Source: Sclerodactyla briareus (taxonomy: Eukaryota > Echinodermata > Holothuroidea > Dendrochirotida > Sclerodactylidae). Taken from it: DNA of 64,000 nt. Positions 11,985-56,432 of the stretch are shown here, piece after piece. The translations under genes were made by a program, and so were the position numbers. The first letter of the stretch is position 1, and the number at the start of each line of letters is the position of its first letter. The stretch spans positions 358,796 to 422,795 of the forward strand of contig JAODTK010001999.1 in NCBI GenBank assembly GCA_026419785.1, read 5' to 3'. Below the pieces are notes generated by a model, which saw nothing but the letters and a program-made list of their open reading frames with translations, did no database searches and had not been told where the DNA came from.

Positions 11985-12560
11985 ATAAAAAATCAAAATG
12001 TGGCTGCGGGTGGAGTCATATGGGGCGAAAACAAAAGTTCATCTTCAAACGATCGCCGTGCTTCAAACGCGCGAATCAGCGAACAACTCAGCAGAAAAAA
12101 TTCAACAATGACCGCCGTCAAAGCGTCATTTTTTGACCATATCAAAATTCTCATTGGACAATCATGTGTGCAACGTTTCATATGGATCAGATAAGGCACT
12201 GAGGAGTTATTGTACAAACACTACACACTAAAACATTCGAGTCAAATTGAATAAAATACTTATCATAAGAAAACGAAACTAGTCATATATGAACCGAATC
12301 TAGTCAAATATTTGAATAGCCCTATTCGTGGACACCTGTTAAGTATTCTATTCAATTTGACTAGAATATTTTTTAGAGTGTATCGAAAACAGTTCGTTGA
12401 AAATCCAAGATGGCTGCCGCCAGAGTGGTGCTGCGACGCCCACATTCGAACTCATCCGAATTATGTAAGGGCGAACATTGTGTGCAAAGTTTCAAATTGC
12501 GTTAGATAGTTATTGCGTTAACAAATCTTCCGGCGGATGCGGCGGCGGCAGTGGACGAAC
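11985..12560 (-). repeat. Dispersed repeat family W, copy 2 (inverted, interrupted)
   Basis: Reverse complement of the W copy at 925-1,400, with matching GCCGCCGCC end, GGCTGCCGCC, TTGTACAAACACTA and CATATGGGGC landmarks. It is split between its TGTACAAACACTA and GTTGAAAATCC segments by the MITE at 12,224-12,380. Confidence 0.75.
12224..12380. mobile_element. 157-bp MITE, Tc1/mariner-like, with TA target-site duplication
   Basis: Inverted ends of about 40 bp: left CACACTAAAACATTCG then AGTCAAATTGAATAAAATAC; right, in reverse complement, CACTCTAAAAAATATTC then TAGTCAAATTGAATAGAATAC. TA flanks both sides (12,222-12,223 and 12,381-12,382). The paralogous W repeat at 925-1,400 shows the unoccupied site, where CACTATC runs on without the insert. 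TA duplication and size fit a non-autonomous Tc1/mariner element. No coding capacity. Confidence 0.85.
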
Positions 12561-12997: not shown

Positions 12998-13081
12998 CCA
13001 CCTATCTTTCGATTTATATAATTTATGCTCTTCCCGGCCATGATCACTCTATATCCACGGCTACATTAATGTTGTGTATAA

Positions 13082-13085
13082 TTAT

Positions 13086-13130
<45 letters not shown>
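13082..13130. repeat. (TA)n microsatellite
   Basis: About 49 bp of TA repeat between the 3' regions of the two convergent Penelope-like relics. Confidence 0.96.
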
Positions 13131-13133
<3 letters not shown>

Positions 13134-13236
13134 AGAGGCAAAAAACTGTAAAACAACAATGCTACGTAAATAATAGACTGGATCTCGAAAGAGATGCGAA
13201 AGAGCGATTGGGCTAGGAAACATGTGAGTAAACGTC

Positions 13237-13299
13237 GCTATGGTTTTTGGATGCAGAGCTTTCGGACAATACTAGTCCTTCGTCAGTGCATGACCACAG
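13237..13299 (-). ncRNA. Hammerhead ribozyme motif of PLE2
   Basis: On the minus strand: CTGACGA (13,286-13,280), one extra A, stem II GGAC/GTCC (13,278-13,275 with 13,267-13,264) closing a 7-nt loop, GAAA (13,263-13,260), then GCTC with the expected cut after 13,256. Stem III is the AGCT palindrome (13,260-13,257). Stem I pairs ATGCA with TGCAT, then an internal loop, then TGG with CCA. All conserved core positions are present; the extra A beside stem II is the one departure. It sits about 260 bp downstream of PLE2 on its sense strand, where Penelope-like elements carry hammerheads. Confidence 0.8.
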
Positions 13300-13559
13300 C
13301 AGTGATAAACTCGAAGAGAAGACGGCTGAGACTTTATAGGCCTAGGAACAATGGGGGAGTGAGGCTAATTTAGTGTTTCGCTGAATTGACAACTCCAGGT
13401 GATAATCCCTTTTGGGGATTATCCGGGAGAGGCAATTTTTTTTTTTTTGCGCCTCAGTGATTGACAGGAGATAATCTCAACAGGATTATACTAATGAAGG
13501 CCAATTTGCGCCTTGGGATGACAATAGGCAAAATAGGGAGGGGGTGCCGAGTGGTTACC

Positions 13560-14368
13560 ATTATCTATTTGTGATGGTAGGTCGTTCCGAATGCTCAGAC
13601 CAAATGGTGTAGTCGTTTCAGGTTCAATCCAGTATTTTCTTTCGCTTTGCGGGATTTAGTGGACCAATTTGGGTCATGGTCGTTGCCAATCACTCTCAGG
13701 CAGGTTTCAATGGGTGACTGACCATGTTGAATGCTTAGCAACCGGCTGCTCAATTTTTTGGGTCTTGATGGCTGACCGGTGTTTGGTCATTCGCTCCCTC
13801 AGGGTGTTTTTTGTTCCCCGATGTACTGAACTCCGCCAGAGGTTACAGTAAATTAGGTAGACCAGGTTTTTCGAGACGCAATCATATCCTGTGAAGCGGA
13901 ATATGCGGGATTGTCTGGAAACTTTTGAAACATGTTGTGCGATCGACAAGTTTGCACGTTTGCAGTTGGATTGGCAGGGGGTGCCCGCGTGTTTGTTTGC
14001 GGCTCGGCTTGCTCCGAAAATTTGGCGTTGACTAGAATGTCACGCAATTCCGAGTTCTGGCTGTAGGCAACAACCGGGGGTTCCGGGAACACGGATTTTA
14101 GGCGTTCCTGACTTTGAAGGAGGGGCAAATGCTTGTGAATGAGAGTGGTTAATGGTGGGAGGGCAGGATGGTATTCACAGACTAGAGGTACTCTGGATTG
14201 GATTGACGAGTTTTGTACGTCAGAGTTTCAATTCGCGGAGTCTTTCTGGCCTTTTCAAGGCCCCTCTTTCAATGAACTCCGGAAATACTGCCTCTTTTGG
14301 AGATGTTTGGAAAGTGCGTGCACGGGACTCGAAATCAGCACCTGAGGAGCAAATGCGTTTCAGAATTA
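13560..14368 (-). pseudogene. Penelope-like retroelement relic (PLE2), RT thumb to GIY-YIG
   Basis: Reading the minus strand across frameshifts gives LKRICSSGADFESR (thumb/linker motif RxRRICSxxxDFxxR), then LKSVFPEPPVVAY and LRDILVNAKF, then RFTGYDCVSKNLVYLIYC, TLRERMTKHRSAI and QPVAKH, which belong to a C-terminal GIY-YIG endonuclease of the Penelope class. The YIG pair itself is degraded by a frameshift. Reverse-transcriptase catalytic motifs are absent because the copy is cut at an AT microsatellite on its 5' side (14,369). The coding match fades near 13,560, and a hammerhead motif follows at 13,299-13,237. Confidence 0.8.
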
Positions 14369-14390
14369 ATATATATATATATAATAATAT

Positions 14391-14465
<75 letters not shown>

Positions 14466-14474
14466 TATATATAT
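14369..14474. repeat. (TA)n microsatellite at the edge of PLE2 and the segmental duplication
   Basis: About 105 bp of alternating TA with ATAATA interruptions. Long IYIYIY frames on both strands here are artefacts of the repeat. Confidence 0.96.
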
Positions 14475-14479
14475 CCGCA

Positions 14480-17185
14480 GATAGCGGCATCGGGTTCTTT
14501 GTGTGTCCGTTGGCCATGGTGGTGAAGAACCAGGTATTGTTTCGGCGCTGAACATGAAACATTGAATCGTATTCGAAATGATGCGTTGTCGTGTACAGGA
14601 GAAAAAACCATGTGGTCAACCGAATGTACACTTGCAAAATTGAAAGAGCCCACTCTCACATATCTGAAAGGTTACGGTGATAATATAATTGCCTAATTTC
14701 AAACGTAGAATGCTATTGTTTGGAAGGATGTTACAGCTCTGATTCGTTAGAGCTATGCTGTGCTCGGTAGGGTGGGAGGTGTATTGTTCACTGTATCTTA
14801 GTCTACGATCCTTTGTTTCGTCTTGATAAGCACAATCGCGTTTCAAGTGCATGCATTCCACGTCCAATTATCACTTCAGTGGGGGTGTTGTTTTATTCAT
14901 TTGCTGTAGGAAAAGATATGAAATATTCCTGTACACTAACTGTGTAATACTGAGTTCAACATTCATAATAAGTGTAAGTTAATGGTAGTAACTAGTTTCA
15001 TGAAGCGCTTTTATTACGTCGAAAACTTGCTCAAAGCGCTTCACAGATATTACTTCGATCCTGAGTGACTCGTCACAATGTAAAATATACATGGTATTGA
15101 TCACTTCTCTAGCCTTTTCTCTCCCGACGCCTAGGGCAGTATAATCACTATATCATGCCACCGCGGGATCGCTATACTCTTCACAAGTCACATCATAAGG
15201 TAACCACTATTACACGTGGGTGGCGTGGTACAATTCAGTCGACATGCCTCTTCTGAAGAGCACTGTCGAACTGCGATCAATGGTCTGCAGTCCGTTGTTT
15301 CTGCTGCCTGAGCTGTCCGCCTCCCTAACGAACAGTTGTGTAATCTCTGTAAATACGGGGGATAGGTGTAGGCCCACTGGTTAACAATCGTGTGTATTTT
15401 CGGGAGATTGGTTCAATACATAAACCACTTCTGTCCAATCGATCAATTGGATAATTCCTGCAGCGGGACGGGTCCCCTGCTGTTCATCATTCATACAAAG
15501 TAACGGTTTGCGTTTTTCTCACTGTAGCAGAAGTGTTACCATAGATTCATGGTATGTGATGTACGTTGGATAATCATCTAGGCGGGATTGAAATCGAAGA
15601 ATTTCTTATGATTGTTCCCATACCGGAAAACATGAATAAATAAACCCGTGACCTCTGCGTGTCCTCGCTCGATGCAACCAACTTTCCCCGATCTCTAAGA
15701 CGAAATCAGCAGCTAGTCAAACAATCGCGGGCTCTCAACAAGGGCGACGCCCGGATTTCCCCGACTAGGGGGGCCAGCGTTCCCCGAAGGGGGGTTCCAA
15801 TTTACCGATGGAAAGTAGGCAATATCGTTCGCCATAGGCACCTCACCCTACCCAATCACCAGAAACATTAATTGTTCATGTTTCATACTCGATTTCGCTC
15901 CCCGACACCCTCTTGCCTTTTCCCGACGGGGGTTTCCACTGCTCCCAGAACGGGGGACCGGACCCCCGCTGGCCCGCCCCTGCTTGCAAGTCTTCAGTAT
16001 AGTCATCGATGACCTGTAGAACAAAAATTCATTATGATATTTAGAAGAGCTTATTACCATCTGCCATATCTCTTGCTGTTTCCTTTGTATTAAGTCATTG
16101 TGAATACCAGGGAAAATCCCACTTTCTGGTTAGGAGCGTTCCAGCGCTGCCTCTTCTTTTAATCTTTTCTTGGTGTGGAATTATTTCCTCTTATCATTAG
16201 CATCCATATGGACTGGTGATGAACACAGCTTTGTAACCCTTTAGATCAGTAGGAAACACTGTTTATGGTTTTTTAAGTTATCAAAAGTTATCGCAATCCC
16301 GTATCTATTGATGGTGAGGGTGGCGAGTGTGACACCACCCCTGTGAAAACAAGACGTCAATCTTGTGAGTTATACGGAGAGGTCGGTCAGTAGATGAAGA
16401 AGCAGGCATTGATGGCAACTGCATCCAGTGGACATGATTCATAACTGCGAATGTAAGTGTACGTCTATACCTCCCCCCCACCCTCCCCCTCCTTCTCCTG
16501 GCCGCGACCTTTGCCCCCTCTCTTGGCAAGACCATGCCTATCCCCCCCCCGGTGTCAAACATGTCAGCCGTTCCCAAATGATCCACACTCGCACACTCAC
16601 ACCATACAAATTGTATATATACGCAACTGAGACGTACTACCTTTCATTAAAATTCCCTGCGATACCGTATAGTCAACCTGACAGTTCACAAAGCGAGGGT
16701 TTAAAAGTACCCATCTACCCAAAGTAAAACTACCACGATTATGGGTAGTAGAGATGGAACATTGTCATATGAGGAGCGCCTAACATACGAAAAACAACGT
16801 GAACCTCAGGTTTGTACCGTAGGTCATCAGTTCATTCGTGCGTGTGTAGGTGCGTAGGGCGGTCTATGGCGTAGGCGCGCGAAAAAAAACCACGCGTGTG
16901 GGTGTATCGATCGATATATAGATATGTGATTTTCGGAAAAATTCCTAGGCCTCTTCAGAATCTTACAGAACGACGAATTGTCACAAAACACGCTCCTCTC
17001 GAAATTCATGGGACGGAGCAAAGTTACGTGATCGGAGTAGGAGAACCAAATTGCACATCGCCTACTGAAATCGTTGCAATCCCAGGATTGCATTGTCGTT
17101 ACATAGTTTCACCTCTGAAACATCCCAGCTAGCACCACACCCGTCCATATATAGTCATTCGCAATATGAGCACGAATAGCATGAC
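14480..17185. other. Duplicated noncoding part of copy A
   Basis: This lies downstream of the conserved splice donor of TRIM gene A, so on the minus strand it would be intron and/or 3' exon. No coding exon is recognised. A C-rich stretch near 16,470-16,500 is shared with 36,158-36,180. Confidence 0.5.
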
Positions 17186-17191
17186 ACTCAC
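17186..17191 (-). promoter_or_regulatory. Conserved 5' splice donor of TRIM copy A
   Basis: The minus strand reads GTGAGT directly after a codon series encoding RRLITYDL. The identical hexamer and context occur in copy B at 36,876-36,881. Confidence 0.7.
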
Positions 17192-19382
17192 CAGGTCATA
17201 GGTAATGAGACGTCGAGTTGTCTCTGTGACGACCACCAGCTTCTCGACGTCTTTGGTAAGGATGCATGTAAGGGCCCTTGAGTCTGCATCGATTTCAAGA
17301 GATGTCAATATTCTGTTACCAGTCTGACCGTACTGAGCGAGGATACACTTTGGGTTGACTCTTCCCCCACAACACGTAAATGAACCCATTGATGTCCGCG
17401 CACACACTGAACGGTAGCAACTCTTTACCCGGTTTGTTCAGCTTTCGTAAAACTGTGATATCGGTTTCGTTCACCGAGAGTTCGAATGCTTCACCGCCAT
17501 CCTGGTCGCACACGAGACGCTTGTTGCCGTCATGGATGGCTATATCTGCTGGCCATGGGGATTACTTTGGTAACTCAATCATGCGACCAATTGCAAAAAA
17601 AAATTGTCAAAGATGTGAATGTCTCTGGGATTGGCATCCCACAAAAACATTGTTCGTTCAGAGGATGACTGGCTACACACGTGATCCATTCGCCCACTGG
17701 CCAATTCCACGGGAGTGAATTGTACTGCAGTGTACGGAAGTCATAAGTGCCATGGAAAATAGGAGAAAGAGACAGAAGAAGCGATCAGAATCTGAGAGTC
17801 CATCAATACACAACAGTATGTATACGGCGTGAACCGAAAGCTATCCTTACGTGTGAATGGATACAGTTTTATTACACTCCCTGACAGGTCTAGAACAGCG
17901 ATACGAAATGTTTTGGCAGATACGTATCCACTTGTTATGATTTTGTCACCACCGAGAGCTGCTAAACCGTTCAATTTTCCAGAGCTCCCCGTATATGAAG
18001 TTCGTCCCAAATCGATAGTCACTGCCTGACAAAGTTCCATTTTCATTTTCTGTGCATTGAACGAAGGCATCTGCAAGGAATCAATTTCGAGTTTGTCAAA
18101 CCCACTTTAGAAAGGTTATCCCTTTTGGGATCTTATCACAAGCCTCTCTCATGTCAGGGATACATTGAACGTCTGTCCAGTCATTGTGACATTCAAGAAC
18201 GTGCGAGGCCGATGACTTCAAATTTTCTACTCGAGATATAGTGTTCTTGGATGTACTTTAATTGATTCGTCCAAAGTTTCAAAGATCCATTTCCTTGAGC
18301 ATCGATGGACAACTTTGATTCATCATAGGCCTTATTCAGGGTTCGTTTCTGATCTTCAACTCTTTTTCCCTACTACCATGTTCTCTAGCAGATCTGATCT
18401 GGTACGAGCATTTGCTGTTTTCTTCTAGTTAGAAAGTTTTTCTATATTTTCATTAATTCAGGGGATTGCTCGCTCAATTCGCTCCTTTCTCATTTCCTGT
18501 ATGTCTGCCAAATCTTTCTGCTCCAGCTGATCAATTTCGGTATTGCGTCGCTTTCAAAACTCCAAGGCTTGTTATACTCATTTGGCCTGGATTTTCCGGG
18601 TCTCTGTTTCATATTTCAGTCCAAACTGATCCTTTTTGGAGCTTAAAGTTTTATTAGCTTCGTTCGAAAATTTTCCAACACTTTGTGTTCCTCTAGGAGC
18701 GCTGCCTCGCGGATTGCTAAGACACCTAGACTTCTGGATATCTTTTCTCGTTCCTCGCTGGCTATTTTAGACACCTCGTGCAAATCATGCCCTTGTGTTT
18801 ACCGAGGGCACCACACGACCACAGACTGGAGCATTTCCACATGTGGTGCAACATAGCTCGGACAATTTATCGGGATGTTCGTTGCACCTAGGAGCCTCCT
18901 AAGAGAAGCTAGTTTTTCCAACGTAATGTTATTTGCCGCAGCGTCCTTTAGAGCCAGAATTTTGTCGAGATGATCCCTGACCATTCTACTAGTCTGATGG
19001 AATGTGTAACACTTCTCGCAGAGGAATCCATCGCACTGGGAACAGTACGCCACGGCTTTCTGTTCCTCCTCGCAACCAGCACAGTGTTTCTCTTCTCCTT
19101 TGTCGACCGTCTGCTGCATCTGAATAAACTGAAGCATACTCTTAATAACGAAGTCAGTTTGTGAAGCCGTCTATTCCATTGCTCGTATCGGACAAGTCAC
19201 ATACATAACGGACAGTCAAATTCTCCCTTGGATTGGTTGGTTTTGATCAGCGAGTCCAGGCAGATGTACAGTAACGGTGGAGACAAGGGAGCCTGCTTCG
19301 GTTCTTTGAAGTTCTCCAGACAGTACGAACACTCGAAGAAGTGTTCTTCCATACTCTTCAGGACTGATGAGGTAGACGCCAT
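17191..19382 (-). CDS. TRIM-family RING/B-box/coiled-coil/propeller protein, copy A (frameshifted)
   Basis: Probable E3 ubiquitin ligase of the TRIM class. ATG at 19,382 opens MASTSSVLKSMEEHFFECSY, whose C18 and C21 start a RING; later ICLD and CPLC segments complete it, but its middle cysteine/histidine part is garbled. A B-box 1 follows at about 19,095-18,970 (CxxC-x9-CxxC-x4-CxxC-x3-H). Next come a frameshifted B-box 2 (about 18,900-18,790), a coiled-coil start (HDLHEVSKIASEEREKISRS), and a beta-propeller-like part (18,076-17,191), with segments such as FELSVNETDITVLRKLNKPG and FSVCADINGFIYVL. The exon ends at a GTGAGT donor conserved in copy B. About 730 codons in a single long exon is a usual TRIM size. 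Several frameshifts are needed, so it is either decayed or affected by sequence errors. The terminal exon was not found. NHL-type versus other propeller is undecided. Confidence 0.8.
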
Positions 19383-19559
19383 TGTGTGGAAGATACTGTG
19401 GAGAAAATAAGGTATAATGGAGACCTCTTCGCTTCAAACACACATGGGGAGGACAAGGGGAATAACTTTACAGAGGAATAGTATGAAAACAATTGTACCA
19501 ATCAGTAGTTAAGCAGTTGAAAGTACATGTGAGAGTTGTACATCAAACCAACATGTCCT

Positions 19560-21204: not shown

Positions 21205-23600
21205 GAGATCAGCTTGTTGATTCTACTCTGGAACCGTGGAGGTCAAAATCGGAGGAAATACATCCAGAGTGAAGCCTATTCCAGCACTGCGACAGCTTCG
21301 AGGAAAAAAAGAGCGAGCAGAGGTGTCGGTGCGATGACGTGGAAGATGTGACCGAAACGGGTGGCTGGAAGAAAGGAAGAGAGGTATGGAGAGGAACCTC
21401 AAGTAAAGGAGGGACAGCATCCCCCACGTCCAGAACGGAACATTGACATATACAAAGTAACGGTAAATGTGAGGCAGAGAGATGATACAGATCTGCGATG
21501 GGATAGGGACTTAAGTGAGGAGGTAAGATGATTATCGTTGATGAGACGATTATTTGGATTCATCGTGGATACGATCAAGCACCTGAGAGAGGAGGGCGAA
21601 GGCCCACCCCAAATATGGGAACCATATTCCATTAGGAAACGAATTTGGCCTTTGTAAAGCAGAAGTAGATGTGTGAGGTGAAGTATTTCCTTGCGCGCAA
21701 TAAGAAAAGCCCAACTTTCTAGAAGCATTGTAGCGAGAGAATTGATATGAGAGTTCCAGGACATGTTGCTGATTTCCCATACCACGGAATAAGAGAGTAG
21801 ATGAGGGAGGATCCGGTCAGCCATGAAAATAGATGGTGCATCAGAACACGCGACCAGAAATCAGCAAGTATGAGTTGAGTTGGGTTGAAGGTAACCCGAT
21901 TAGCAGTGCCCCAGTTCAAAATAGACTGAAGATCATTGGTCTGCGATGGAAACTACGGAACGGTTATAGACAGAATCGTTCCGCTTCTGGGGACGAGGAA
22001 AGCACCCCCCCCCCCAGAGAGTGTGAGGGTAGAATCATCAGCAAAGGCGTGAATACTATAGGAGGTAGAGCTAAGAAGTCGTGATAAAAAAAAGAGGGTA
22101 GGAGAGAAAACACAGACCTGAGAACACGCATGATAAGGAAGGTATCGGAGAGAGCCCATCCACCCGAACAGAGATAGAGCGACGGTAAGACAACTGGCAG
22201 TCCAAGAAGGTGAAGGAGGCTGAAACCATAATGGAGTAAGTTGGGGCATGAGGAGAGCGCTGAAACTGTAACTATACGTTTCCATAACTTTGGAGAGAAC
22301 CGAGATGAAGGCATTCGGCCTGTAATTGGAAGGGTGGATTGTCACCCTCTTAGGGACTGGGCAGACATAGCATGTTTCCACACAGAAAGGTCGCATTCCC
22401 ATAGAATAAACAAAGAGGTAAGCGTGCTAAGGATAGGCGCAAGGTTCGGGCACACTTCGGGATGGATATAGGAGGACTGCCATCAGGACCAGATGCTTAT
22501 TAATGTCTAAACCTATTGAGGTTTTGAGGACAGCGCGTGGTGAAAACAACAGCCGAGATCGTTTCACTAAAGTGGCTAAAGATGGAGGAGGATGAGCATA
22601 CTCTGTGTTCATAGTGGAATTAGAGAGACTAGGTCGGCAAAAGTATTAGCTTTAGAGGTGGCATCACTGGCCCAAAGAGCATCAGGTTTAACCAGCGGAT
22701 GAATTTGAAGTACAGAAATTCTGGGGACACAGCATTTGGCAGCGACCAAATGAAGTTACCAGAAGGGCAGGATGAAGTTTATTAGCCATAGTGGATGGAG
22801 AGTTTTTCGCCTCATTCGTAGGCTCAGAGCACACATTACGAGCAGTTACATAGGCTTGATGAGAATCAGGGAGGAGAAGAAAGCCAAGTCGATTTAAGTC
22901 GGTTCTTCTCTGGACGGCAGTGGTACTATTGATGTCGAACCTGAAGTGAGAAGAGGGAGCTGCTCTTAAGGTAGGGAAAAAAAGTGATCATTCCCAAAGA
23001 ATAATTTCCGAAATAGCAGAAGCAGAGGTTAGAGGGGTCTCTGAGAGAAGTAATTTCATCCCACGAGAAGACTGAAAAAAATTACCGAAGCCAAACCAGT
23101 AGCTTATTAGGTTAGTTCCATAGTTTCTGCCTTTGGTGGGGCGCTCCCTTCTAGGAATTAGATGTGAGACAGGGTAAAGTTGATGAGGCAATGGAAAGAG
23201 GAAAAACAATAGGGGCAGCGACAGTGGACTGCGACGGTAAATAGGGCTGAGTAGGTCAGTAGTGAGAAAAAGATCCACCAAGTTAGCAGAGTCACGAGCC
23301 CCGATCTGGGATACGGGTGGGAGAATTGAGGAGCTGGGTTCAGACTCAACCAACAACCCAGCTCTATCCGAGCCGGTAGAGTGTATGAGCCATTCTGAAT
23401 TATGCACATTGAACGTCACCCAGTATAGCAAAGTGAGGTGAAAAAGAGGTGAAGATCCGAGAATAGGCCTCGATGATTATTACAATGGGCGAAACGGTAG
23501 ACACAACCGAACACTTAGTGAAGGCGCGGACGAGAGAGACTTTGCGCAGAGGAAGTTGAAATGAAAGTCATCACAAATATAACAAATAAACATTGTTACT
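21205..23600 (-). pseudogene. LINE (CR1/Jockey-type) ORF2, 5'-truncated and frameshifted
   Basis: On the minus strand, from high to low coordinate: the end of an AP-type endonuclease (FNVHNSEWLIHSTGSDRAG and DLFLTTD, 23,430-23,150); the start of the reverse transcriptase (LKTSIGLDINK near 22,520; PSNYRPNAFISVLSKVMET near 22,330); a FSPTLFFLS segment corresponding to the VPQGSVLSP region; the catalytic FADD box (about 22,033-22,047); then the post-RT region (HINSLATM, LLLLYKGQIRFLMEYGSHIW, LTSSLKSLSHRRSVS) and a terminal CWNRLHSGCISSDFDL segment ending near 21,205. Order and motifs are typical of a single-ORF2 non-LTR retrotransposon. Many frameshifts make it inactive as read. The 5' end including ORF1 and most of the endonuclease is missing. 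Confidence 0.9.
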
Positions 23601-24924: not shown

Positions 24925-26046
24925 CTTGTTGACACGATAACACTCGATCCCACCTGGATATGAATGAAGCCGCTACCCTGGGATGTGGTTTCCCTCTGGA
25001 GTAACATACTCCCTTTGTTAAGATTGTCAGGTCAAGGTCACCTGAGGTCAGAGAATTTCATAGTCTGAAATCTTGTTAACACATAAGTCCAGAAGCCCTG
25101 GTCCGATCAGATTGAAATTCGGTCGGTATGCAGCTTTCTTATGGCGTTTATGGAGCGCTTTTGTTTTGGTGCAGACTGGTGGTCGGATTTGGGAGAAATT
25201 TGGAAATTGTAAAATTGATAATTTGGCATTTTAGCTCGGTAGCACGATATATCGGTCGCCACCTGAAATGAAATGAAGCTGATGCATGGTATAATGGGTT
25301 CCCCTGATTAGTACATTAATCCCCTATGTCTTGTTTGGAGGTCGGTCAAATGGCATCTGAGGTCAGCAGAGGTCAAAAATCTGAAAATCTTGTAAACATT
25401 ATTGTTTCAAAAGCTGGTCCGACCAGTTGAAATTCAATATGTGGCTTTCTTATCAGGAGTACAGGAATCCCACTGGTTTGGTGCAGACTGAAAGTCCACA
25501 TTGTGGGGGGAAAAATTGGGAATTGTAGAGAGAGAAGAAGAAAAATAAGATGAGAGAAATTAATTTGGCCAAATTTATCTCGTGAACCACGATACGTCGA
25601 TCACACATGGATTCTGAGTTCTACTTGGTATAAAATGGGTTCCCATATGTTGTACATATCCTATTGTTGTGTGGTCAGAGTCCCTGAGGTCAGCCCGCCT
25701 GGTTCGATCATGGGAAATTCGGTTTAGAAACGGAACCGGCTTTCTTATGGGGAGTCCAGGAACTCTATTGTTTTTAGAGTGCAGATTCTGGAGTCATATT
25801 TGGGGAAAAATATGGGAAATTTGTGAAAATTGATAATTTGGTCAAATTTGTATCATGTCCCTACACGATTAACTCGATCCCCCTGGATAAATGAAGCTCA
25901 ACCTGGTAGTGGGTTTCCCCATAATTAGTACATACGCCCCAATTGTTTAGGGATCAGTCAAGGTCATCAACAGAGGTGTGTATGCGTGTGTTGTGTGCGT
26001 GATGTGTGCGTGTTTGTGTGTGTGTGTGTGGTGTATGCGTGTATGT
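24925..26046 (+). repeat. Family T array: three ~310-bp units plus a partial, with (TG)n tail
   Basis: Units recur near 24,974, 25,285, 25,624 and 25,900. Each carries a GGGTTTCCC/GGGTTCCC segment, a dozen bases later a TAGTACAT-like word, GAGGTCAxxxxAGGTCA, GAAATTCGGT and CTTTCTTATGG. The array ends in a TG-rich microsatellite at about 25,974-26,046. No protein coding was seen. Related inverted units lie at 27,400-27,990. Confidence 0.8.
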
Positions 26047-27400: not shown

Positions 27401-27990
27401 GGAAACTACCATCTGACATTTCCCATTTTTTCCTCAACCACCAATAGGGTTCCTATGCACTTGATAAGACAGGATTTCAAGGATTTCCTACTTGATCTCT
27501 AGTGCCGCCTCAAAAAACTAGAGTTCCTGTCTCCATCATGGGTAACACCCATCCCAAGTATGACCTCCATCCCTCAAGGTGGGAACCGAGTTAACGTGTT
27601 CCCAAGCCGAAATTTGCCACAATATTACTTTTCATTCACTAATTTTATTATTTTCGACAAAAATTCACATCACCCCGACCTCTACTAAAACATAGGGTTC
27701 CTTACTCCCCATAATAAAGTTACACAACCAAATTTGAACCCATCAGACCCACCATTCTCGACTTTTCCTGTTTACAACGGTTTTTCAGACTTTGACCTCT
27801 ATTGACCTCCCATGACCTTACCTGACCCCAGAATCTAGGATCATGTACCCACTTTTGAGAACCCCCATACCAATATGAGCTTGGTCCCATTCAGTGGGGT
27901 TGAGTTATCGTGTTCACAAGCCAGGCGTCACACACACCCACACAACCCTACACACACACACACACACACACACGACACAACACCCACACC
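27400..27990 (-). repeat. Family T, inverted units with (CA)n
   Basis: Reverse-oriented T units end at about 27,610 and 27,923 (GTTAACGTGTTCCCAAGCC and GTTATCGTGTTCACAAGCC), a spacing of 313 bp. A (CA)n tract follows at 27,929-27,990, the complement of the (TG)n tail of the forward array. Confidence 0.75.
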
Positions 27991-33905: not shown

Positions 33906-36900
33906 ACCCGGTGAATACTTGTTTGTTTTTTAATCCCCCTCATAAGTCTCACAGTCGCCGCTTGATTGAATGAATGTCATACATACCAGATACCACAACA
34001 TCTCCCAATCAGAAATGATTGAAACAACTTCATTCCTGGTGACGTCACATCGAAACGCGGTGAAAAACTATAGAATGATCGTTCAGCTCGCTGATAAAAT
34101 AGAGACTAGTGGATAGCATGCTTATGAGAGCGTTCGTTCCTATATCGAGTTTTGCAAATAGGCGGGTCCGGGTCATTTGTGTGTCCGTGGCGTAGTGGTG
34201 AAGGACAAGGTATTTTCGGCAACTCTTGACCTTAAATAATACGATTTCATACGAACAGGAATACCCCCATATTTTTTTTATGTACACTTGCAGAATAAAA
34301 AAAGAGACATTCCCAAATATCTGATAGGTTACTGCTGAATAATATATTGCCCTAATTTCAACGTCGTGACTGATATTGTATTGGGAGATGTTACATTCTG
34401 ATTTGTTAGGGCTATGCTCTTCTCCGTGGGGTGGAGGTTTATGTTCACTGTATATTTCCCTACGATCCTTTGTTCTTCTTGATAAGTAAAAGTCGCCGTT
34501 TCAATGCATGGCTTCCCCGTCCAATGCTCACTTCATGGGATGTTTGTTTTAATTCATTTGTTGTAGGGAAAGAAGAAATATGTTTTTGTACACTAATGTG
34601 TAACTACTGCAGACAACAATTGGCCTACTAAGTAGACGTTAATCGTAGTAACTATTCATGAAGCGCTTCTATTACGTCGAATACTTGCTCAAAGCGGCGT
34701 TAACGATATTACCTCCGATCCTGAGTGACTCTCACAACCCGTAAAATATACATGGTATTGATCACTTCTCTAGCTTGTTCACAACCTACGCTCCATGTCG
34801 ATATGTCACTACATCATGTCCCCCGGGAGTCGCTATACTCTTCAACAGTCCACATCAAAAGTAACCACTTCTACGCTTTCGCTTGCCTTGGCGTGGTACA
34901 ATGCATAGGCGAATCCCCCGTCTGAACAGCCTGTCAAAACTCGCGATCAATGGTTCTGAAGTTCTGCCGACTGAGCATACGCTTTTTCCCTAACGAACAG
35001 TTGTGTAATCTCTGTAAATAGAGATATGTGTAGGCCCCCGTTAACAATTGTTGTATTTTTCCGGAGTGCTTCAGTTACAAACATAAACCACATTCTGTCC
35101 AATCGATTCATGGCTAATTAGCAGCGAACGGGTCCCCTGCTGCTCTACTCCGTCACTACAAGTACTGTTTGCGTTTTTCATCACGGTGCAGAAGTGTATT
35201 ACCATGATTCCATGATGGAACCGTTTAATAATCCATCTAGGGATTGAAATCGAAGAATTTTATGCTTGTTCCCATAGCCGAATAACAATGAATAACAACA
35301 ACCGTGACCTCTGCGTGTCCTCGCTCGATGCAACCAACATTTCCCCGATCTCAAGGACGACATCAGCATCTAGTCAAACAATCGTCGGGCTCTCAACCAG
35401 GGGCGACGCCACATAATTTCCCGATAGTGAGCAAGCGTTTTTTCCCGACGGGGTGGGGGGGGGTCCGATTTCCCAGTTGAAAAGTTTCGGCAGTATCGTT
35501 CGCCATAGTGCACATCACCCAAACCTATACACCAAACCTTCATTTTTCCATGTTTTTTTCATTGCTCGATTTCCGCTCCTTCGACAACCCTCTCGCTTTT
35601 GTTCCCCGACGGGGGTCCCATTTCCCCGACGGAGGGACGTGGACCCCCCCCTGGCGCCGCTCCTGCTCTCAAACATCTCATTATAGTCTCGATGACCTGT
35701 ATCACAAAATTCATCTGAATTAGAAGACTTATTACCCTTCCATATCTCTGCTGTTTCCATTTAAGTACCTTTGACGTGCTAGAGACACTCCACTCTCTGG
35801 TGGGAGCTGTTCCAGCGCTGCCTCAGGTTTTTCATCTTTTCTGGTGTGGTATTAGTTCTCTTATCATTATTATTCATTAATGACTTGTGTTGACACAAGT
35901 TCGTAAATTAACTGATCAATTAACGGCATCACCCCCTGTCAATGGTTTTTACGTTTATCAAAATGTTATCGCAAATCGTCTGTATCTATTGATTGGTGAG
36001 GTAGGAGTGTGACACCACCCCCTGTGAAAACAAGACGTCAGTCTCTGATAAATATACGGGAGGTCGGTCCAATATATTAAGGAGCGAGGCATTGGATGGC
36101 AACCGCATCCAGTGGACCATGGTCTCATAACTGCGAATGTAAGTGTACGTCTATACCTCCCCCCCCCCCTCCCCCTCCTTCTCCTGGCAGCGACCATTTG
36201 CCCCTCTCTGTCAGACCCTGCCTACGTGGTCCAACAGTCACCGTTCCCAATTATCCACACCTCGCAACCTCACACCATACAAATTCGTATATATACGCCA
36301 CTAGACGTACTACCTCATCATTAAAATTCCCTGCTATAACGTATAGTCCAACCTGACAGTTCACAAGCGAGAGTGAAACGTACCCCATTCCTACCCAAAG
36401 TACCCAACCACGATTATGGGTAGTAGAGATGGAACATTGTCATATAAGAGCGACTAACATACGAAAAACAACGTGAACCTCAGGTTTGTACCGTATGTTC
36501 CTCAGTTCATTCGTGCGTGTGTATGTGCGAGTGTACGTGTAATATTGTCGTATGCGCGCGAAAAAACCCGCGCGCGTGGGTGTATCGATCAATATATCAA
36601 TAAATGATTTTCGGAAACTTTCCTAGTTCTATTCAGAATCTTTTAGAACGGACGAATTGTCACAAAACACGCTCCTCTTGAATTCGAGAATAGTCATTTG
36701 ACGGAGCAATGTTGCGTGACTGAATAGAGGAACAAATTGCACATGTATTGAGAACTTGCAAATCCAGGATCGTATTGGTCGTTACATAGTTTCACCCTCC
36801 GAAACATTCCAGCTAGCACTACAACCCGTCCCTGCCTGTCCGTTCTCAATATAGCATCATAACGCATAGCATGACACTCACCAGGTCATAGATAATGAGA

Positions 36901-37247
36901 CGTCGTGTTGTCTCTGTGACGACCACCAGCTTCTCGACGTCTTTAGTGAGGATGCATGTGAGGGCCCTTGAGTCTGCATCGATATCAAGAGATGTCAATA
37001 GTCTGTTACCAGTCCGACCAGTACTGAGTCAAGGATACACTCGGGTTGACTCTTCCCCCACAACACGTAAATGAACCCATTGATGTCGCGCATACACTGA
37101 ACAGTAGCAACTTTTTACTCGGTTTGTTCAGCTTCGTATCACTGAGATATCGGTTTTGTTCACCGAGAGTTCGAATGCTTCACCGCCATCCTGGTCGCAC
37201 ACGAGAAGCTTGTTGCCGTCATCTATGGCTACATCTGCTGGCCATCG

Positions 37248-37401
37248 GATCATCTTAGGAGTCTCATCCTGCGCACGTGGCTCAGATCCTTGTCAAGATG
37301 TGAATGTCTCTGGTATTGTCTTGTCTTGTCTTGTCTTGTCTGTACTATGCAAACACCAACTATGGTTATCACTGCATAGGATGAGACTCCCAAAGATGAT
37401 C
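37248..37401. repeat. Inverted 23/24-bp pair around a (TTGTC)5 insertion in TRIM copy B
   Basis: GATCATCTTAGGAGTCTCAT at 37,248 is matched in reverse complement at 37,378-37,401. Between them lie (TTGTC)5 at 37,316-37,340 and about 37 nt of other sequence. Copy A has no such insertion. Confidence 0.8.
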
Positions 37402-38219
37402 ATTGCGTCACACAATAACCTGTTCATTCAGAGGGTGACGGGCTCACACGTTAATCCATTGGGCCCACTGCTGTTTCCACGAGAGTGAATTGTACTGCAG
37501 GTTACGTAAGTCATAAGTGCCGCTCAATTCGGAGGAGAGGGGCGATCAGAAAATTGGGAGTCCATCAATACACAACAGTATGTGTACGGTGTGATCAGGA
37601 AGCCACCCTTACGTTCAAATGGATACCGTTTTATAACACTCCCTGACAGATCTAGAATAGTGATACGAAATTCTTCGGCAGACACTTGCTATGATTTTGT
37701 CACCCCCGAGAGCTGCTAATTTCAATTTTTCAGAGCTCTTCGTATATGAAGTTCGCCCAATCGATGGTCAATTCCAACAAAGTTTCCATTGCAATCAATC
37801 TTCTGTGCATTGAACGAAGGCATCTGCAAGGAATCAATTTCGGGTCTGTCGAACCACTTTAGACAGGTTATCCAGGGTTGACGTTGTATTACTAGCCTCT
37901 CTCATTTCAGGGAGTTACATTGAACGTCTGTCCAGTCATGGACATTCAAGAACGCCACAAGGCCGATGAATTCAAATGTCATCTAATATAAGTGTTCTTC
38001 GGATACTTTAATGCTTCGTTCAAAGTTTCGAAAATCCCATTTCCTTGAGCATCGATGGACACTTTGAATCATCATAAGCCCTTATTCAGGGTTCGTTTAT
38101 GATCTTCAAGCTCCTTTTCCCTACTACCATGTTTCCTAGCAGTTCTGACCCTGGTACGAGTTTGACTGTTTTCTTCTCGTTTATAATTTTATCTATATTT
38201 CATTAATCTCCTTGGGGGG

Positions 38220-38248
<29 letters not shown>
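38220..38248 (+). repeat. Poly(A) tract, 29 nt, inside TRIM copy B
   Basis: Absent at the matching place in copy A (near 18,465), where the sequence runs straight into TGCTCGCTCAATTCGC. Confidence 0.95.
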
Positions 38249-38250
<2 letters not shown>

Positions 38251-39259
38251 CTCGCTCAGTTCGCTTCCTTTCCTCTTTCCTGTATGTCTGCCAAATCTTT
38301 CTGCTCCAGCTGATCAATTTCTGTGTTGCGTCGCTTCAACTCGATGCGTACACTTCATGTGGTTCTGGATTTGCCGGGTCTGTTTCATATTTCAGTCCAA
38401 ACTGATCCTTTTTGGAGTCTAAAGTTTTATTTAGTTTTGTTCGTAAATTGTTCACTTTGGTGTTCCTCTAGGAGCGCTCCCATGCGGATTGCTAAGACAC
38501 TAGACTTCTGGACATCTTTCTTCGTTCGTCGCTGGCTATTTTAGACACCTCGTGCAAATCATCCCCTTTGTGTTACCGGGTCCCCAACACGAACACAGAC
38601 TGGGGTATTTCCGCACGTGGTACAACATAGTTCAGACAATTTGTCGGGATGTTCTTTGCACCTTGGGGCTTCCTTGAGAGAAGCCAGTTCCTTCAAAGTT
38701 ATACTATTGGCTGCAGCGTCTTTCAGGGCCAGAACTTTGTTGAGATGATCCCTAACCATTCTACTAGTCTGATGGAATGTGTAACACTTCTCACAGAGGA
38801 ATCCAGTGCACTGGAAACAGTACGCCACGGCTTTCTGTTCCTCCTCACAACCAGCACATTGTTTCTCTTCTCCGCTGTCGACCGTCTGCTGCATCTGAAT
38901 AAATTGAAGCATCCTCCTTCATAACGAAGTCGGTTTTGAAGCCGTCCTATTAAAAAAAAAAAAAAAAATTCCATTGCCGTATTGCTAAGTCGTACTCCAC
39001 ACCGGACACTCGAATTCTCCTTTGGATTGGTTGGTTTTGATCAGAGTGTCCAGGCAGATGCTGCAGTAACGGTCAAGGCAGGGTACTGCTTTGGTCCCTT
39101 GAAGTTCTCCAGGCAATACGAACACTCAAAAAAGTGTTCTTCCATACTCTTCAGGATCGATGAGGTCGACGCCATTGTGTGGACGATACTGTGAAGAAAA
39201 TGAAAGTATGGTGGCATGAGCTCCTTCCGCTCCAGTCAAACACATGGGGAGGGCGTCGG

Positions 39260-55474: not shown

Positions 55475-55669
55475 CATATGCTACATTTGCGAACGCTATA
55501 TTACAGCGACAGTTTGAGTCTCGTTTTTGAGTCTCGATGAGAACGAATAGAAAATAACCTAAGTTGTATAACGTATTCTGACACTTCACCCCACCCCGAC
55601 GAAAACGTGTGCATTAAACAATCATTCTGTCGATTTCTTTTTTCGGCTCCAAACCCATAGGGGGGCAGC

Positions 55670-55701
<32 letters not shown>

Positions 55702-56432
55702 GGCGCCGCCCCTGGAGACATGTACTCATATTGGGCTCTCAAATACCTAGAATGAGCTCGATCCATTCAGGTGGGGTTTAAGTTATATAGTTCACAAGCA
55801 TATGCTACATTTGCGAACGCTATATTACAGCGACAGTTTGAGTCTCGTTTTGAGTCTCGATGAGAACGAATAGAAAATAACCTAAGTTGTATAACGTATT
55901 CTGACACTTCACCCCACCCCGACGAAAACGTGTGCATTAAAACAGCATTCTGTCGTTTTTATTTTTTCTGCTCCAAACCCATAGGGGGGCAGCCGCCCCC
56001 CCCCCTCCCCCCCCCCCCCCTGTGGCGCCGCCCCTGGAGACATGTACTCAATATTTGCTCTCAATACCTAGAATGAGCTCGATCCATTCAGGTGGGGTTT
56101 AAGTTATATAGTTCACAAGCATATGCTACATTGCGAACGCTATATTACAGCGACAGTTTGAGTCTCGTTTTGAGTCTCGATGAGAACGAATAGAAAATAA
56201 CCTAAGTTGTATAACGTATTCTGACACTTCACCCCACCCCGACGAAAACGTGTGCATTAAAACAGCATTCTGTCGATTTTATTTTTTCGGCTCCAAACCC
56301 ATAGGGGGGCAGCCGCCCCCCCCCCTCCCCCCCCCCCCCTGTGGCGCCGCCCCTGGAGACATGTACTCAATATTTGCTCTCAATACCTAGAATGAGCTCG
56401 ATCCATTCAGGTGGGGTTTAAGTTATATAGTT
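55475..56432 (+). repeat. Tandem triplication of a ~322-bp unit
   Basis: Units start at CATATGCTACAT at 55,475, 55,799 and 56,120 (periods 324 and 321) and are nearly identical, including CCCATAGGGGGGCAGCCG, a long C run, TGTGGCGCCGCCCCTGGAG and GAGCTCGATCCATTCAGG. The main differences are the lengths of homopolymers. The last segment, with TTCACAAGC, resembles the end of a family T unit. Confidence 0.95.
55672..55698 (+). repeat. Poly(C) tract, 27 nt
   Basis: The longest uninterrupted C run in the window. The equivalent runs in the other two units contain a single T. Confidence 0.95.

Follow-up and report, generated by a model that had tools for sequence, protein, structure and literature searches.

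In the window, the stretch of 64,000 nucleotides of DNA analysed here, the pseudo-LTR (pLTR) of an endonuclease-bearing Penelope-like retroelement (PLE) probably carries a minimal type I hammerhead ribozyme that acts by the mechanism suggested below. It is confirmed that the motif is a genuine hammerhead motif, as its recurrence in the genome exceeds chance. The hammerhead itself is of a known type; what is new is a profile of the 5' ends of its genomic copies.

The hammerhead motif in the window

The initial annotation described a nearly complete hammerhead on the minus strand, and direct reading of the sequence agrees: all the parts it named are present in order from position 13300 to 13237. 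The motif has the type I layout, CUGANGA - stem II - GAAA - stem III - (N)UH - stem I, entered via stem I. It departs from this layout in that stem III consists of the AGCU palindrome alone, as described for minimal hammerhead variants, and in one extra A after the core. The parts are as follows.

13237..13300, minus strand: minimal type I hammerhead ribozyme motif (sequence, folding, family alignment and family model)
13294..13300, minus strand: outer stem I, 5' strand GCTGTGG, pairing with CCATAGC at 13243-13237 (sequence and folding)
13287..13291, minus strand: inner stem I, 5' strand ATGCA, pairing with TGCAT at 13255-13251 (sequence and folding)
13280..13286, minus strand: core CTGACGA (sequence and aligned copies)
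13279, minus strand: extra A at the junction of core and stem II (aligned copies)
13264..13278, minus strand: stem II with a 7-nt loop (sequence and folding; 94.0% of cells paired in 35 copies)
13260..13263, minus strand: core GAAA (sequence)
13257..13260, minus strand: AGCT palindrome, stand-in for stem III (sequence and aligned copies)
13255..13256, minus strand: predicted cleavage site, C 13256 / T 13255 (hammerhead rule and 5' ends of copies)

Stem II is formed by GGAC (13278-13275) and GTCC (13267-13264) around the loop TAGTATT (13274-13268), and the A of AGCT at 13260 is at the same time the last A of GAAA. Hammerheads are cleaved after H17. Applied to the minus strand, this rule makes 13256 C17 and agrees with the cut after 13256 predicted earlier.

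When 13225-13305 is folded, stem II and the two parts of stem I form (-21.9 kcal/mol, z -2.10); 7 of 200 shuffles fold as well. The window contains 9 instances of the bare core pattern, CTGANGA...GAAA, where 4.06 are expected, and 2 of 100 shuffles reach this number. The Rfam search that had been proposed as a check failed to support the motif: neither the whole window nor small stretches of it gave a hammerhead at the gathering threshold or at E values up to 10. The model RF00163 had no match in the window's own genome and none in 14 control genomes, which makes it uninformative here. It should also be noted that a match to Rfam is a detection tool and not a defining biochemical feature of hammerheads. 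With a bare core commoner than expected and no Rfam match, a single occurrence proves little.

A family of copies

With the 251 nt surrounding the motif as query, 513 first-look candidates turned up in the genome; 40 of them were scored, and every one proved to be a match, at 84-100% identity. Searching the 319 Mb genome for stem I, core and stem I as one pattern gave 7 matches, the one in the window included, and the reversed control gave 0. The family model, to which the window copy itself contributed, scores that copy at 81.7 bits (E 1.2e-17); the runner-up within the window is at an E value of 0.13.

Thirty-five copies were aligned (alignment A2), and five of these (L001, L003, L004, L006 and L007) were found via an intact-core pattern, which favours conservation in the counts: CTGACGA is intact in 28 copies, CTGACGAAGGAC in 21, GAAAGCTCTG in 24, and both CTGACGAAGGAC and GTCCGAAAGCTCTGCATCC in 12. 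One copy reads CTGACGAGGAC, the form lacking the extra A. The extra A, earlier listed as a variation in need of testing, is thus part of the family sequence. Loop II occurs as TAGTATT, AATTTTT and CATTATT, with core and stems kept.

Over 5,750 aligned positions in 30 loci (L008-L037) we counted 177 indel events and 174 substitutions. Indels as frequent as substitutions are unusual for neutral decay, and this suggests either an error-prone assembly or an unusual, indel-rich decay.

The host element

The link to a Penelope-like element holds: the window copy aligns to loci with two ribozymes, and a family member encoding a GIY-YIG endonuclease (EN) has the ribozyme downstream of it. The following remains of the element are found in the window.

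13128..14364, minus strand: 5'-truncated EN+ Penelope-like copy, comprising the RT-EN linker, EN remains and a 3' pLTR ending in GTCTA (blastn)
13853..14227, minus strand: 124-aa open stretch with the linker motif SQNSELRDILVNAKF (150 scored matches in its own genome)
13616..13871, minus strand: remains of a GIY-YIG endonuclease coding sequence, broken over two frames (tblastn, EN of L142 as query)
13084..13127, no strand: (TA)n array bordering the copy on its 3' side (blastn of loci against the window)
14370..14474, no strand: (TA)n array bordering the copy on its 5' side (repeats in the window and blastn of loci)

When the loci L050, L056, L054 and L041 were compared with the window by blastn, they matched at 82-85% over 1274-1367 columns. 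The alignments extend from window positions 14361-14364 to 13077-13121 and finish in (TA)n bases. The window copy is 82-84% identical to L050 and L056, both of which carry the ribozyme twice. Among the 20 extended loci examined, these two have their ribozymes approximately 3.1-3.2 kb apart, and L044 has them 2.3 kb apart in a less clean arrangement, with the upstream match in two pieces. The second ribozyme of L050 and L056 lies at the other end of the unit, and the window copy is in the 3' pLTR. Locus L050 is a partial tandem, in which an incomplete unit with EN remains and a pLTR precedes a longer one. The motif had initially been placed downstream of the element; its association with Penelope stands, and the blastn alignment moves it inside the 3' pLTR.

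The Pfam GIY-YIG model PF01541 had three matches in the genome (21 candidates scored). One of them, C2282:586125-586364 in locus L142, scores 29 bits against a cut-off of 22.6, and is followed approximately 300 nt downstream by the family ribozyme, at 104.5 bits. A tblastn search with this EN detected the endonuclease remains in the window with E values of 2.9e-16 and 1.2e-11. In the second GIY-YIG locus, L141, the ribozyme match is weaker (26.9 bits, E 4.4e-5). Locus L140 (C2776:462-608), the third, holds a distinct GIY-YIG coding stretch, and no family ribozyme was found in the fetched locus. A core-like match in L140 was rejected as chance, being without stem I and on the strand opposite to EN.

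The linker motif SQNSELRDILVNAKF resembles PLE proteins. About four fifths of the 150 scored matches to the 124-aa stretch carry in-frame stops (hand count). A Pfam search of the broken frames, with stops read as X, found neither RT nor EN. By eye, LPKIHK, VKDT and YIDDIF are visible in the fetched frames; we take these to be motifs resembling PLE-type RT, and from their position we assume EN to lie downstream of RT. Searches of PDB sequences with the window ORF and with EN gave no matches.

The element had also been called a relic. The firmer evidence for this is that it is truncated at its 5' end and lies between (TA)n arrays; the broken frames may partly be assembly error, since indels are as common as substitutions, and the term should not rest on broken frames alone.

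Other features of the window

A stretch at 16439-19408 is duplicated at 36125-39201, approximately 19.7 kb away, with 83-94% identity in the listed pieces; its minus strand encodes B-box-like and TRIM-like fragments below the Pfam cut-off. Open stretches on the minus strand at 21399-23476 look like a LINE reverse transcriptase. Two regions, 24932-25486 on the plus strand and 27512-27923 on the minus strand, are 70-73% identical to L054 3537-3975 in opposite orientations, and could stem from related elements or from a repeat that entered L054. At 55488-56432 a unit of approximately 320 bp with long C runs is present three times in tandem, and several further sites in the window have long poly(C) tracts. 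The stretches 1043-1190 and 12153-12459 form an inverted repeat pair, 86-91% complementary.

Organization of the pLTR

Two putative control elements precede the ribozyme.

13332..13338, minus strand: TATAAAG, putative core promoter (sequence and pLTR majority sequence)
13301..13305, minus strand: TCACT, putative transcription start with the A at 13303 (5' ends of copies)

In the majority sequence of the pLTR, TATAAAG is succeeded by TCACT, the ribozyme and then approximately 127 nt from the cut to GTCTA. The start A lies 34-35 bp from the first T of TATAAAG (majority sequence and window), a spacing a little above the usual. At the start the majority sequence is TCACTTC and the window reads TCACTGC; both the TATAAAG and the start motifs vary in single copies.

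The 3' ends were sorted by motif count over 63 copies (L008-L037 and L087-L119). In 52 of these a (TA)n array occurs at most 150 nt after the tail core, mostly directly after GTCTA as judged by eye; three copies continue into the element, and eight show neither. Arrays of (TA)n following the tails fit internal initiation of reverse transcription and AT-rich targets, as described in vitro for the Anolis element (PMC11167929).

Genomic 5' ends of the copies

The 5' ends were scored relative to the predicted cut by anchored extension in 145 copies, 81 from sample A and 64 from sample B. Sample A is made up of 81 places from two tail searches, among the matches listed: one search scored 40 out of 448 candidates, and the other was confined to matches with up to 3 mismatches. 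Sample B comes from a cut-anchored search that gave 78 places. Of these, 64 were counted, 10 were already in sample A, and L003, L011, L035 and L050 were left out as they extend upstream of the ribozyme. Sample B demands the bases beside the cut and so cannot show ends beyond approximately +3.

Seventy-six of the 145 copies begin upstream of -62; these are longer copies, many of which reach the edge of the fetched stretch. Going downstream, 5 ends lie at -62 to -54, 30 at -53 to -46, 2 at -45 to -35, 6 at -34 to -29, 5 at -28 to -2, 7 at -1 to +2, 1 at +3 to +8, 8 at +9 to +13, and 5 beyond. Thus 8 positions near the transcription start predicted from the TATA box hold 30 of the 69 ends that lie downstream of -62. 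Most short insertions begin at this putative start, and short copies therefore seem to derive mostly from uncleaved RNA. Cleaved RNA is perhaps sometimes their template, as a minor one.

The seven ends at the cut are those of L157 (-1), L058, L120 and L131 (0), L061 (+1), and L062 and L139 (+2); only three of the seven are exactly at 0. L062 begins with a short duplication, CATCCAAAA-CATCCAAAA. If ends were spread uniformly, finding 7 of 16 within 4 of 48 positions would have a nominal P of 1.6e-4, in a set from which four copies were left out by eye; all four remain in the profile. For two of them, L091 and L108 (scored at -14 and -37), the putative start site is where the copy begins; the other two, L099 and L164 (scored at -21 and -42), are internal deletions. 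L065 and L069, both scored at -59, also look like start-site ends. Cleavage predicts neither the group at -34 to -29 nor that at +9 to +13; the background is therefore uneven, and the P value errs on the generous side. As a single position was predicted, the width was chosen, four rows were set aside and a group at -34 to -29 exists, the excess of ends at the cut over chance is only suggestive.

The six copies that begin at -34 to -29 start at the beginning of the ribozyme core. The eight ends at +9 to +13, beside TA-rich flanks, may reflect a stop of the RT at the base of stem I or microhomology. In two loci a short copy beginning at the cut or 1 nt after it is found near a longer copy, in opposite orientation in L007 (1356-1541 and 1940-2091) and in the same orientation in L039 (4605-4730 and 5540-5710).

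We found no report in which genomic 5' ends of PLEs were mapped to the start or the cut, a weak statement given that most subscription papers were outside the scope of the search. Counting copy starts is a cheap test of cleavage in vivo that needs no RNA, and can be used in any genome with an abundant PLE family.

Proposed mechanism and alternatives

We suggest that the pLTR promoter, with its TATA box, would start an RNA approximately 50 nt before the cut, and that the first 70 nt or so of this RNA would fold into the ribozyme. The AGCU palindrome is unable to close a stem alone, so the active fold would be completed by a second ribozyme in a tandem transcript, by a second transcript, or by a protein of the element itself. 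Action as a dimer, proposed earlier from the short stem III, is plausible: reviews portray PLE hammerheads as having no helix III and perhaps being cleaved as dimers (PMC6155905, PMC7761336). The self-complementary AGCU is compatible with it, and tandem units could supply the second ribozyme. The RNA would then be cut after C17. Since the ribozyme would fold at the very 5' end of the transcript, the cut would strip the capped leader of approximately 50 nt, and the remaining template would start with TGCATCC. Reverse transcription would begin approximately 127 nt further on, at (TA)n-rich target DNA.

We tentatively propose that the insertions starting exactly at the cut record cleavage by a PLE hammerhead in vivo, that RNA with a 5'-OH is sometimes reverse transcribed, and that the ribozyme is a switch dividing the transcripts; this is a possibility that we hold well short of conviction. 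If true, the switch would divide transcripts between uses and would not be an obligatory step of transposition, and the start-site insertions would show uncleaved RNA to be the main template. The profile of 5' ends places the ribozyme directly after the putative promoter.

It is conceivable, if somewhat unlikely, that the clusters of 5' ends arose from RT stopping at the folded ribozyme, or from joining by (TA)n microhomology, and not from cleavage of the RNA. The ends at +9 to +13 by the base of stem I, all eight with TA-rich flanks, speak for this, as do the six ends at -34 to -29 and the general abundance of (TA)n flanks. However, a stop at the base of stem I would not give ends at 0, and the three copies exactly at 0 (L058, L120 and L131) have differing flanks, none of which reads on into the ribozyme.

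We find it unlikely that the ribozyme is an inactive passenger, its ancestral activity lost through the extra A and a weak stem I, its motif kept by shared descent and the ends at the cut due to chance. Many cores are damaged, as the counts for CTGACGA and for CTGACGAAGGAC with GTCCGAAAGCTCTGCATCC given above show, but damage to single copies is expected of dead insertions and an indel-rich assembly. Covariation within the family was not above that of shuffles, with one pair changed on both sides, equalled by 85 of 500 shuffles; this absence says little among copies that share a single recent ancestor. On folding, the majority sequence did not outdo its shuffles (z 0.08; 98 of 200 were as good), and beside the core its stem I is only TGCA/TGCA, weaker than that of the window copy. 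The Anolis ribozyme, moreover, is dispensable for insertion in vitro (PMC11167929). Against these points, core, extra A and stem II are constant between groups of copies whose loop II differs, and seven of the 145 copies start at -1 to +2.

A non-autonomous retrozyme, spreading through RNA circles and only incidentally in the neighbourhood of a PLE, is very unlikely. Short copies of ribozyme and tail, or of tail alone, do exist, and their size is near the 170-400 nt that PMC7229834 gives for animal retrozymes. Nevertheless, the ribozymes are never closer than 2.3 kb in the 20 extended loci, the same sequence lies downstream of an EN gene, and there are no short tandem arrays in 30 loci; the short one-hammerhead tandem repeats that characterize non-LTR retrozymes were found in neither set of loci. 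Chance resemblance, for which the excess of bare core patterns in the window might speak, has next to no probability left, refuted as it is by the recurring family (40 of 40 scored genome matches) and by the fixed position of the motif in the element.

Comparison with known systems

Minimal type I hammerheads of PLEs were reportedly described by Cervera and de la Pena in 2014 and by Lunse, Weinberg and Breaker in 2017. That hammerheads are established in Penelope-like elements, as stated earlier for this DNA, is supported by two reviews (PMC6155905, PMC7761336), which describe them as minimal, without helix III, located in pLTRs, tandem and possibly cleaving as dimers. The family reported here is like these in element class, pLTR position, lack of helix III and more than one copy per locus. 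It may differ in the fixed extra A between core and stem II.

The Poseidon element PAc of Anolis carolinensis shares with our family a ribozyme at the junction of pLTR and ORF, internal initiation of reverse transcription downstream, AT-rich targets and tandem units (PMC11167929). According to that paper, RNA-seq reads neither start nor stop at the cut, insertion in vitro persists in ribozyme mutants, and the ribozyme shows no cleavage without its protein. Unlike that study, which has no RNA reads at the cut, we counted genomic 5' ends. The ORF of PAc is there reported to start at stem II, with the RT start 111-118 nt inside the ORF (PMC11167929). In contrast to PAc, the first ATG after the cut in our locus L106 lies past the tail junction.

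An additional core base also occurs in a viroid hammerhead, which we take to be that of CChMVd, with the extra base following A9. It was reportedly described by De la Pena and Flores in 2001, as cited in PMC6155905, and its effect is treated in PMC11014351. That hammerhead resembles ours in having one additional nucleotide in an otherwise standard core, and differs in being from a plant viroid of unrelated sequence and context.

The animal non-LTR retrozymes (PMC7229834) likewise have a type I hammerhead in short units. They form short tandem repeats and RNA circles, whereas the copies described here are tied to a protein-coding PLE.
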